This document shows, piece after piece, positions 2,725 to 26,953 of a DNA stretch of 26,953 nt. Position numbers and translations under genes: made by a program. This DNA comes from a virus: IMG/VR virus record IMGVR_UViG_3300017706_000621, positions 1 through 26,953 of that record; one strand, given 5' to 3'. The notes under the pieces are model-generated. The model had not been told where the DNA came from. It worked only from the letters and a program-made list of their open reading frames with translations, and did not search any database. How positions within the stretch are numbered: position 1 is the first letter of the stretch; each line of letters starts with the position of its first letter.

Positions 2725-3173
2725 TACGCTGCCTCCTGGGTTAATTTATCTAAAAATAGTATTTTTTCTACTGCTGTTTTATCAGCACCATACCAGTCAA
2801 CAAAATTTTCTACTATTTCTTTGTTGTTGATTGTATAGCCTGCTGTTCTGTGAGCAGCCACAAAGTCATCAACATAATATTCTAATTCTTCAATAACATC
2901 TTGTTGGTCATACAATTCACCTTGTAATATGTGCAATGCTAGAAACACTTCTTCACCTGCATCCCATATCTTTTCATATAATTCATCTGATTGTTCTACG
3001 CCATCTTGTAGCTCAACTATAAAGCTACCATAATTGTCATGCTTTACATTCCACACTGTATATGGAAGTTTTGCTTGTAATAGGTCAAATAATTTTTGAC
3101 ATTGATCCTTCCATAGTGGCATATCTACTACTATAAAAAAGCTCTCATCATCTATTTTTTTGAAGTTATTCAT
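2724..3173 (-). CDS. Highly acidic protein of unknown function, 149 aa
   Basis: The frame is open from 3197, but the start at 3173 (MNNFKKIDDESFFIVVDM) is preferred. ACGGAG lies 10 nt before it, and the upstream segment through 3197 is a leader shared with the 155-aa gene, where it is out of frame. I count 31 Asp/Glu against 12 Lys/Arg, so net charge is strongly negative, with clusters such as EELEYYVDD. First gene after a consensus promoter, followed by two co-transcribed small genes. Small acidic early phage proteins are sometimes DNA mimics or inhibitors of host enzymes; that is only a suggestion. No family recognised. Confidence 0.75.
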   Translation of the reverse strand: MNNFKKIDDESFFIVVDMPLWKDQCQKLFDLLQAKLPYTVWNVKHDNYGSFIVELQDGVEQSDELYEKIWDAGEEVFLALHILQGELYDQQDVIEELEYYVDDFVAAHRTAGYTINNKEIVENFVDWYGADKTAVEKILFLDKLTQEAA

Positions 3174-3219
3174 TGTATTTGCTCCGTTTGTTGTCATAAA
3201 CTTTATTGTCTATACTTAT

Positions 3220-3248
3220 AGTATACAGCAAGATGTCTTACTTGTCAA
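3220..3248 (-). promoter_or_regulatory. Sigma70 promoter TTGACA-17-TATACT with operator-like palindrome
   Basis: -35 TTGACA (3248-3243), 17-bp spacer, -10 TATACT (3225-3220). The spacer carries AGTAAGACATCTTGCT, an inverted repeat with one mismatch. The promoter and the 5' leader down to ACGGAG (about 75 nt) are nearly identical to those at 3764-3792. Confidence 0.85.
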
Positions 3249-3253
3249 CCTTT

Positions 3254-3721
3254 TTATGCCGCTTCTTTAACATTATTTAATGCATCTTTATACCACGGCA
3301 TAGCACCTGATTCAATTACATCATATACATCATCAAACATTTTGCAGAAGAATTGTGTTTTAATACGCTTGTAATTTTTGCGTATATTAGCCACTGTATG
3401 TGGTGCAAGGTCATAATAATCACCTTCTGCTAAATGCCAATCTTCTGGGAATTCAAATGTTTCAACAATCATAAAGTCATTCATATCATTAGCATCTGAT
3501 ACACTATCAATTGCTGCTTTAATTGACTGTGGATTAAGTTTATCAAAGCGTTCATGAACAATAAAACTTACTTCACAGTTGCTGTCAACACCGTGACTTA
3601 CATCTGGTGCAATGCGTGAGCCTGTTTGTTCAAGTATTGCTGTGTAAACTTCATTTACATCACGGTAACATTCCGCTGATGTGCTATAAATTGCTACTGT
3701 TTTTGTATTAGTGTTTGTCAT
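3254..3721 (-). CDS. Acidic protein of unknown function, 155 aa
   Basis: The protein begins MTNTNTKTVAIYSTSAECYR and ends in VKEAA. It has more Asp/Glu than Lys/Arg (about 26 to 14) and an alpha/beta pattern with VSFIVHERF and FMIVETFEFPEDW. ATG at 3721 follows ACGGAG by 6-7 nt in a leader shared with the 149-aa gene, so the two should be expressed together, although the proteins show no clear similarity by eye. No terminator is visible between them. No family recognised. Confidence 0.75.
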   Translation of the reverse strand: MTNTNTKTVAIYSTSAECYRDVNEVYTAILEQTGSRIAPDVSHGVDSNCEVSFIVHERFDKLNPQSIKAAIDSVSDANDMNDFMIVETFEFPEDWHLAEGDYYDLAPHTVANIRKNYKRIKTQFFCKMFDDVYDVIESGAMPWYKDALNNVKEAA

Positions 3722-3763
3722 TGTTAACTCCGTTTGTTGTCATAACTTAATTGTTATACTTAC

Positions 3764-3792
3764 AGTATACAGTAAGATGTCTTACTTGTCAA
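3764..3792 (-). promoter_or_regulatory. Sigma70 promoter TTGACA-17-TATACT with perfect spacer palindrome
   Basis: -35 TTGACA (3792-3787), 17-bp spacer, -10 TATACT (3769-3764). The spacer contains AGTAAGACATCTTACT, two perfect 7-bp arms around CA. A protein bound there would cover the promoter, so it is a good operator candidate. Confidence 0.85.
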
Positions 3793-3804
3793 CCTTTAGA
3801 GTCA

Positions 3805-4548: not shown

Positions 4549-4575
4549 AATTGTATTTATTCCTTGTTATTAACA

Positions 4576-4619
4576 CCTATCTTACAGATAGGAAACATCA
4601 AAACTCTAAAGAGTTTTTT
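4576..4619. terminator. Two hairpins before the 79-aa gene; one terminator-like on both strands
   Basis: AAAACTC (4600-4606) pairs with GAGTTTT (4611-4617) around TAAA. On the plus strand it runs into TTTTTT, so it would stop plus-strand transcripts better than minus-strand ones. CCTATC (4576-4581) pairs with GATAGG (4587-4592) close to the ribosome-binding site of the 79-aa gene. These could mark the 3' end of the upstream RNA or regulate the gene. Confidence 0.4.
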
Positions 4620-4684
4620 CTGTTTATTTTTTATCTTTAGTTTTTAGTTCTTAAGTGGAACATGTATTCATTTATTAGATAATA

Positions 4685-4712
4685 ATTATATTATCTTTAA
4701 GTTTGAAGTCAT
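4685..4712 (-). promoter_or_regulatory. Possible promoter ATGACT-16-TATAAT
   Basis: A perfect -10 TATAAT (4690-4685) lies 16 bp after ATGACT (4712-4707), which matches 4 of 6 bases of the -35 consensus. It sits just downstream of the 12-bp hairpin at 4711-4738 and would serve the 79/103/51-aa unit. The region is very AT-rich, so a chance match is possible. Confidence 0.4.
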
Positions 4713-4907
4713 AGTCACGCTAGTATTAGCGTAACTATAAAAATCAAATACTTTAAGTATCTGTCATTTACTGTATTAACTTAACCCAATGGGAAAGGCA
4801 GGTTTTGCTGTCTCCTTTTACAAGCGTGTCTGTTTAACGCAATGCATTACAACCAATACAGAAGTCTCTGTAATGCACATGAGGGCTGAATTGTGTATCC
4901 CTCTCAC

Positions 4908-4924
4908 TTAGCCAATATTAGTAT
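4908..4924 (-). repeat. 17-bp direct repeat, copy 2 (copy 1 at 5131-5147)
   Basis: The minus-strand sequence ATACTAATATTGGCTAA occurs exactly at 5147-5131 and at 4924-4908. In each case it follows or overlaps a -10-like hexamer, so both copies could form the 5' end of a transcript. Confidence 0.8.
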
Positions 4925-4995
4925 ATATTTGCCACACCATTAAGACAAGAGAAAAGCACTAACCACATAGGGGCGTCTTTTAAGGCATCCGCCAT
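4918..4995 (-). CDS. Possible 25-aa peptide inside structured RNA 1
   Basis: ATG at 4995 reads MADALKDAPMWLVLFSCLNG and stops after 25 codons. No good ribosome-binding site is present, and the start lies in the CCGC/GCGG hairpin loop. It may be chance or a short regulatory peptide. Confidence 0.15.
   Translation of the reverse strand: MADALKDAPMWLVLFSCLNGVANIY
4920..4948 (-). promoter_or_regulatory. Possible internal promoter TTGTCT-17-TATACT
   Basis: TTGTCT (4948-4943), a 17-bp spacer and TATACT (4925-4920) precede the second copy of the 17-bp repeat. The -35 matches 4 of 6 and the -10 matches 5 of 6 consensus bases. It would start a shorter RNA whose 5' end resembles that of RNA 1. Confidence 0.45.
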
Positions 4996-5145
4996 AAGCG
5001 GGTAGTCTCTTGAATCAGATAATAAGCAATCTTAACCTACCCTCTCACATCAGAAGGGATTCAGTAGCACTATTCAGTTGCCGTGCTGGGCTTAATCTTA
5101 TTTGTGAGGGTTCTGTGTGTGTGAGTTGTGTTAGCCAATATTAGT

Positions 5146-5174
5146 ATTATATGTTAGTTTTAATTATCTGTCAA
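5146..5174 (-). promoter_or_regulatory. Perfect consensus sigma70 promoter TTGACA-17-TATAAT
   Basis: -35 TTGACA (5174-5169), a 17-bp spacer and -10 TATAAT (5151-5146). The -35 lies in the last codons of the 125-aa gene. It points into 600 nt without a convincing gene. Confidence 0.9.
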
Positions 5175-5537
5175 TCCCCAATATCCTGCTTCTATCATTG
5201 AAGTAATACATCCCCAAATAAGAGTTTGTGCTTCTCTCTGTTGTGGTGTGTTCATTGCGGCTGTCATTATTGCTGAAAAACTGTAATCACTTACGCCGTT
5301 GTCAACTGCCCATTGTTCAAATTTATCAAATTTTTGTTGAGCTGAATTGCGTAAATTTACAGGCATATCCCAAAATCCAGTGCATGCAAAATCTTTAAAA
5401 TCTTCTATGTCTGCATCTGTTAGGTTATCACGTAATTTATGTAAGGTGCGTGTTTTAGTAAAATCACCATGCCATTGGTTAGGTGCTACTTGTTCACAAG
5501 TGTAGTTGTCTAAAAATGTTTTAATGATTGTATTCAT
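5160..5537 (-). CDS. Protein of unknown function, 125 aa
   Basis: The protein begins MNTIIKTFLDNYTCEQVAPN and looks mostly helical, with acidic clusters (DADIEDFKDF) and four Trp in the remainder. ATG at 5537 has AAAGGAG 9 nt upstream and its own promoter at 5591-5619. It forms a single-gene unit between a terminator and the RNA 1 promoter. No family recognised. Confidence 0.75.
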   Translation of the reverse strand: MNTIIKTFLDNYTCEQVAPNQWHGDFTKTRTLHKLRDNLTDADIEDFKDFACTGFWDMPVNLRNSAQQKFDKFEQWAVDNGVSDYSFSAIMTAAMNTPQQREAQTLIWGCITSMIEAGYWGLTDN

Positions 5538-26777: not shown

Positions 26778-26953
26778 TAGTAGGTTCCTCCATCTGTTAA
26801 TGCACTCAAGTCTTGACTGTTTCCATTTGAAATAGCAAGGTCTGGTGATGTAAACGTTAGTGTTTGATTATCAGTTTCACTTGTCAAATAACCTGCGTCA
26901 TTTGTAAACATTGAAATGTTTCCTGATTTGTTTGTTAGCGTTTCTGTTGAATC
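26777..26953 (-). CDS. 3' end of the 442-aa fibre gene, reading from the terminal repeat
   Basis: Continuation of the gene that starts at 1275. The codons at 26953-26831 duplicate those at 123-1, then 17 codons (SNGNSQDLSALTDGGTY) and TAA at 26779-26777. Not a separate gene. Confidence 0.85.
   Translation of the reverse strand, partial: DSTETLTNKSGNISMFTNDAGYLTSETDNQTLTFTSPDLAISNGNSQDLSALTDGGTY
26831..26953. repeat. Terminal redundancy, copy 2
   Basis: Identical to bases 1-123; see the first copy. It indicates that the window is one full turn of a circular or circularly permuted genome. Confidence 0.9.

Follow-up and report, generated by a model that had tools for sequence, protein, structure and literature searches.

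What does a perfect consensus promoter transcribe when nearly 600 nt behind it hold no convincing gene? The question arises in the window, by which we mean the whole stretch of DNA analyzed, an entire virus record of 26,953 nt with genes for terminase, portal, and further virion proteins. An earlier note had called this promoter the best in the window and the nearly 600 nt behind it devoid of a convincing gene, and we found both descriptions to be accurate. The predicted promoter matches the consensus at 12 of 12 positions and is the sole exact TTGACA-17-TATAAT site in the window (0.04 expected from dinucleotide shuffles), and neither strand has an ORF of at least 50 aa between 4549 and 5159. 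Judged by its sequence, a host-type sigma-70 promoter stands upstream of the RNA, with transcription inferred to start near 5139. The features of the locus are as follows.

5160..5537, minus strand: 125-aa gene upstream of the RNA; its 3' end overlaps the promoter
5174-5146, minus strand: predicted consensus sigma-70 promoter, TTGACA-17-TATAAT, 12/12 match
4565..5139, minus strand: large structured non-coding RNA, ~575 nt; core conserved as a unit, ends inferred
5108..5137, minus strand: conserved leader TTGGCTAACA...CACAGAACCC, mostly unpaired; common to the short-core and L006 RNAs (see below)
4939..5096, minus strand: Domain I, multi-branched, closed by 5096-5091/4944-4939; 19 pairs with two-sided changes
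Minus strand, helices of Domain I: 5087-5083/5070-5066, 5065-5063/5037-5035, 5058-5053/5046-5040, 5031-5029/5020-5018, 5012-5006/4952-4946
4771..4903, minus strand: Domain II, with hairpin 4903-4899/4885-4881, stem 4878-4870/4850-4842, and pseudoknot 4861-4852/4780-4771
4746..4762, minus strand: hairpin AGATACU-uaa-AGUAUUU; two-sided changes in 4 of 7 pairs
4711..4738, minus strand: 12-bp hairpin; inner 7 bp (4734-4728/4721-4715) conserved
4651..4660, minus strand: conserved 3' motif TTCCACTTAA, present too in the short-core and L006 RNAs
4600..4617, minus strand: 3' hairpin A, AAAACUC/GAGUUUU; arms differ yet remain complementary in L018, L028, L035, and L041
4576..4592, minus strand: 3' hairpin B, CCUAUC/GAUAGG; CCUGUC/GACAGG in L008, UCUCUC/GAGAGA in L010
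4309..4548, minus strand: 79-aa gene of unknown function directly downstream; not beside the RNA in every member

No trace of a protein was detected in the RNA region. The 416-nt core contains no coding relic (6-13 stops per frame), and protein-coding conservation is absent among the cores, all of which carry stops in all frames. Conservation that follows codons would have spoken against an RNA, and the cores have no codon structure. A small ORF at the 5' end of the RNA (TTG/ATG GCT AAY) was rejected, as its frame differs between members. ARAGORN detected no tRNA anywhere in the window, and no plus-strand promoter matching at 9 or more of 12 positions occurs within 4560-5174. No intrinsic terminator was found between the RNA and 3832-3811; because of this, and because the ends of the RNA are unmapped, it could belong to a longer mRNA.

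Related contigs have a TTGACA/TATAAT promoter at a similar distance upstream of the RNA (L006, L008, L010, L021, L028, L034, L035, and L041) or a variant of it, namely TAGACA (L018), TATACT (L040), or TTGACT/TACAAT (L054 and L055). Genes other than the 125-aa gene occupy the upstream position in L006, L008, and L018. Elsewhere in the window, the regions 3164-3255 and 3716-3797 are similar to each other, with TTGACA-17-TATACT at 3248 and 3792; both align to one site in relatives, as repeated early promoters. The window also has a 123-nt direct terminal repeat (1-123 = 26831-26953), and its circle may be real or may be an assembly join within repeats. Since this repeat lies inside a tail-fibre repeat, it is weaker evidence of closure than the terminal repeats of G006 (127 nt) and G011 (144 nt).

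Fold and covariation

The minus-strand RNA (4565-5145) folds at -145 kcal/mol (z = -3.8), a value equalled by 0 of 100 shuffles; the plus strand of the same region gives a weaker fold (z = -2.2). We aligned 11 cores with MAFFT without using structure, the members being 61-93% identical to the window. An RNAalifold model built on these cores comprised 87 pairs, 37 of them with compensatory changes. In an initial count with controls, 98.1% of cells were paired and 39 pairs had two-sided changes, compared with 20 in shuffles and 3-8 when the structure was slid. A scan of all column pairs revealed one additional long helix, the 10-bp pseudoknot 4861-4852/4780-4771, which took the place of an RNAalifold helix (alignment columns 313-316/325-328) and uses some of its bases. 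The pseudoknot is intact in 11 of 11 cores, and 4 of its pairs have changed on both sides; its arms read CUGUAUUGGU/GUUAAUACAG in the window and CUUAAUCGGU/GUUGAUUAAG in L054.

With the pseudoknot and the domain-closing stem added, the final structure has 97 pairs, and 97.8% of cells are paired across the 11 cores. Two-sided changes were observed in 42 of the 97 pairs, against 22.2 in shuffles (0/500) and 3-9 in slid controls. Because many of these changes separate two clades, we reconstructed them on a tree, which yielded ~58 two-sided events over 40 pairs (at least two events in 13 pairs) versus 23 events in which pairing was lost or gained. The pairs were counted on the alignment from which they were derived, a circularity that the slid controls address, and the pseudoknot was selected from among all column pairs, a concern to which its 10 consecutive intact pairs speak. 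Distinct core sequences number just 12, and they fall into two main clades. Since covariation extends over 42 pairs and the pseudoknot is intact in every core, we take this to be a genuine large structured RNA, and we have almost no doubt, on comparative grounds, that the family is real and structured. As far as can be read from sequence, it codes for no protein and has a conserved multi-domain fold with a pseudoknot.

The leader reads TTGGCTAAYA...CACAGAACCC across members. The closing stem of Domain I is AUUAAG/CUUAAU, and the pseudoknot of Domain II encloses three hairpins (4840-4824, 4818-4794, and 4793-4785). The arms of the 3' hairpins were read from member sequences, some automatic matches (L041 B and L006 B among them) being misplaced or on the opposite strand. 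A perfect 17-nt repeat, TTAGCCAATATTAGTAT, links the leader with the inter-domain spacer (4908-4924 = 5131-5147), and the inner of the two copies might fold into a 9-bp hairpin.

Several elements of this architecture had been proposed in the earlier note. Its 10-bp stem (4878-4869/4851-4842) is supported by two-sided changes in 5 of the 9 pairs tested, and the inner 7 bp of its 12-bp hairpin (4738-4711) persist in almost every member (97% of cells). Its GGGUAG (5042-5037) and CUACCC (5005-5000) are present in the sequence, but their long-range pairing is unsupported; in the comparative structure, GGG (5042-5040) partners CCC (5058-5056) and not CUACCC. The pseudoknot, the stem 5096-5091/4944-4939, and the 3' hairpins (4617-4600 and 4592-4576) were absent from that note. 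Its leading option, a new class of large RNA, has gained weight: homologues exist in IMG/VR, covariation is strong, with two-sided changes far above the slid controls, and the lack of any Rfam family match is consistent with a new class. The window RNA represents, on this predicted structure, a large phage RNA of a new family, whose compact architecture is supported by covariation.

Distribution and exchange of cores

We gathered related phages by flanking-gene searches and located the RNA itself by DNA-pattern scans of IMG/VR. The scans identified the same core in 12 further contigs from at least two phage lineages. Members with this long core occur in window-like phages (the window, L010, L018, L028, L035, L040, and L041) and in a second phage group with other neighbours (L054, L055, L056, L058, and L059); the copy in L057, which is of the L041 type, is partial. 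A looser IMG/VR pattern added no members. An Rfam 15 cmscan of the window yielded no hit at the gathering score and no relevant one even with E relaxed to 10, and L056, L034, and L006 likewise had no Rfam match. Group I and group II introns, tmRNA, and RNase P RNA gave no match (Rfam, ARAGORN). The RNA had no blastn hit in INPHARED or PLSDB, the core had no match in an exact-pattern scan of 84,980 GTDB genomes, and a protein-anchored scan of GTDB genomes found none. A literature search found no description of the window's RNA.

The leader, the TTCCACTTAA motif, and the 3' hairpins are common to RNAs with a different middle, namely a short core (L008, L021, and L034) and the core of L006. A covariance model of Domain II, run on 35 sources including the short-core contigs, L006, DSL-LC06, and HTVC111P, recovered long-type members only, with 13-bit noise elsewhere; the other cores are therefore not recognizable homologues. 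For the short core, represented by three distinct sequences only, 8 of 90 pairs have two-sided changes (0/500 shuffles). Behind the 3' tail, L018 (~4790-4840) and L006 (~5255-5310) share GCCAAGCTCAGA...ACCG.AAGCAAT within what may be a stem; this could be a second, small RNA element.

The nearest flanking-gene relatives of the window phage lack its RNA. In L002, flanking DNA is 83-84% identical at the nucleotide level on both sides, and the slot holds a 512-aa ORF and no RNA; in L006, the 79- and 103-aa proteins are 89% and 86% identical to those of the window, and the RNA core is different. In L018, by contrast, the RNA core matches that of the window at 92.9% identity, beside an upstream HTH protein just 27% identical, and the RNA of L010 is 96.5% identical in its 3' half and 62% in its 5' half, with a 79-aa homologue at 46%. 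More distant phages thus have the RNA at 90-93% identity, whereas near relatives carry another core or protein genes. From these identities, it follows that recombination has moved the RNA, and its domains, independently of what lies next to them. The comparison reveals a cassette that moves between phages, with conserved ends and exchangeable cores.

Protein genes occupy the slot in several relatives. A 190-aa protein family without a known function is found there in four contigs (L005 4907-5485, L044 6901-7512, L052 2758-3294, and L079 12850-13422) and in no RNA-bearing contig; many contigs are partial, and the same slot is used by both. PDB searches with this family were empty or noise (AlphaFold pLDDT 46, too low for use). 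The L005 slot ORF may be an MT-A70-type adenine methyltransferase, a reading taken from its DPPW motif without profile confirmation. The 512-aa ORF of L002 (6493-8031) and a 369-aa ORF of L049 (3454-4563) also fill the slot, without Pfam hits. By eye, both have motifs resembling single-subunit polymerases (VKEAITAMGFGAKSSLYG, VHDGVY; EHDGF). For the 512-aa ORF, PDB and Pfam searches were empty or noise, and a single-sequence AlphaFold prediction had a pLDDT of 34, too low for use. These arrangements suggest that an RNA can fill an accessory-gene slot otherwise held by proteins. The absence of the RNA from some close relatives provides natural knock-outs, and its identity with that of more distant phages exceeds 90%; for these reasons, a comparative and genetic test of a large phage RNA would be unusually direct here.

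Possible functions of the RNA

Most window-like phages have the same small operon downstream of the RNA. In L054-L058, the genes downstream of the core are unrelated to those of the window, and in L018 the 103-aa gene lies directly downstream. Moreover, the 79/103/51-aa operon occurs without the RNA in L002, L005, L044, L049, L052, and G011. Because the downstream genes differ between lineages, the RNA does not serve the 79-aa gene as a dedicated leader. Because the core precedes unrelated genes in a second lineage and the usual operon exists without it, we infer that the RNA probably acts mainly in trans. In our preferred reading, this tailed phage carries a large structured RNA that stands alone and acts in trans. 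Host RNA polymerase would make it early and in quantity, although expression data are lacking, and it would fold by itself. The 3' hairpins might be trimming sites on a transcript that continues into the 79/103/51-aa operon. The folded RNA would then act on a host target, to which nothing links it directly. An accessory role in host takeover or counter-defence is a tentative inference, drawn because the slot in sister phages holds swapped-in protein genes (one DPPW-type) and because near relatives lack the RNA. More doubtful is the proposal of a single promoter/leader and a single 3' tail, both shared, between which different structured RNA cores are exchanged, with RNA and protein genes interchanging in the slot as host-takeover or counter-defence effectors.

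To our knowledge, few large, ornate RNAs have been described from phages, and ROOL and GOLLD have no assigned function. Both often lie near tRNA islands, and GOLLD is often over 800 nt. They are nearest in kind to the window RNA and are not its relatives. ROOL (Rumen-Originating, Ornate, Large; 659 nt in the solved example) is structured, pseudoknotted, and phage- or prophage-borne, with no known protein partner, and GOLLD, also large and found in phages, is conserved in its 3' part but variable in its 5' part (PMC12286853). The window RNA resembles ROOL in being large, structured, pseudoknotted, and phage-borne; unlike ROOL, it has no Rfam match even at E 10, no tRNAs nearby, its own consensus promoter, and exchangeable cores. 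It differs from GOLLD in its length of ~575 nt, in being conserved at both ends with a swapped middle, and in the lack of a sequence or model match. We consider it unlikely that the RNA assembles, in the manner of a GOLLD/ROOL-like RNA, into a homo-oligomeric particle or cage. Its phage origin, size, multi-domain pseudoknotted fold, and lack of an obvious protein partner would fit such an assembly, as would the constant 3' and variable 5' parts of GOLLD (PMC12286853), but no sequence or covariance-model relation exists and the window has no tRNA. Such an oligomer would be compatible with the accessory role in host takeover or counter-defence.

A cis-acting leader and a replication primer are less likely. 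The former, an attenuator or riboswitch-like element for the downstream operon, was an option raised earlier for the 79-aa unit, and the RNA does directly precede the window's 79/103/51-aa operon without a terminator between them. Against this, the same core stands before other genes (L054-L058) and before the 103-aa gene (L018), and six related phages have the operon without the RNA; we therefore give this explanation little credence.

ColE1 RNA II is a structured replication pre-primer of ~550 nt with a strong promoter, in a replicon without an obvious replication protein. The window RNA is alike in length, structure, and promoter strength, and no polymerase, helicase, or initiator is obvious among the ORFs of these ~25-29 kb genomes, a statement that rests on ORF lists and selected profile searches and not on exhaustive annotation. 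An RNA II-like pre-primer, forming an R-loop near its 3' end that primes DNA synthesis in a phage without a recognized replication protein, could also be read into the polymerase-like motifs seen by eye in the slot ORFs of L002 and L049. Unlike ColE1, however, the region has no antisense RNA I promoter, evidence of an R-loop is lacking, and the skew does not clearly change here. Phages swap the RNA as they would an accessory gene, and some sister genomes of the same design lack both it and the 512-aa ORF, for example G011 with its 144-nt direct terminal repeats. The primer, also suggested earlier, is not excluded, has no positive support, and seems improbable to us. A chance fold or decayed gene in promoter-rich spacer DNA without RNA function can be set aside almost entirely. 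In its favour, the spacer is AT-rich, a low folding energy by itself proves little, and the fold of the short-core relative L034 is no more stable than those of its shuffles (z = -0.7). Against it, 42 covarying pairs with a conserved pseudoknot already contradict this reading, and no frame holds a coding relic.

We also compared the trans-acting RNA that we favour with a region of phage DSL-LC06 (OR003941; L080), the best INPHARED terminase match (49%). In this deposited lake phage, ~460 nt without a credible gene (831-1290; fold z = -4.8) have no detectable homology to the window RNA. Both regions are non-coding and structured; that of DSL-LC06 has its own intrinsic terminator (1268-1285), with a perfect consensus promoter right after it. 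The region is a second candidate large phage RNA. At ~607-760 of the same genome, a frame resembling a 58-aa zinc-ribbon protein of L002 and G011 contains an in-frame TGA where relatives have Trp, which may reflect a decayed gene or a sequencing error.
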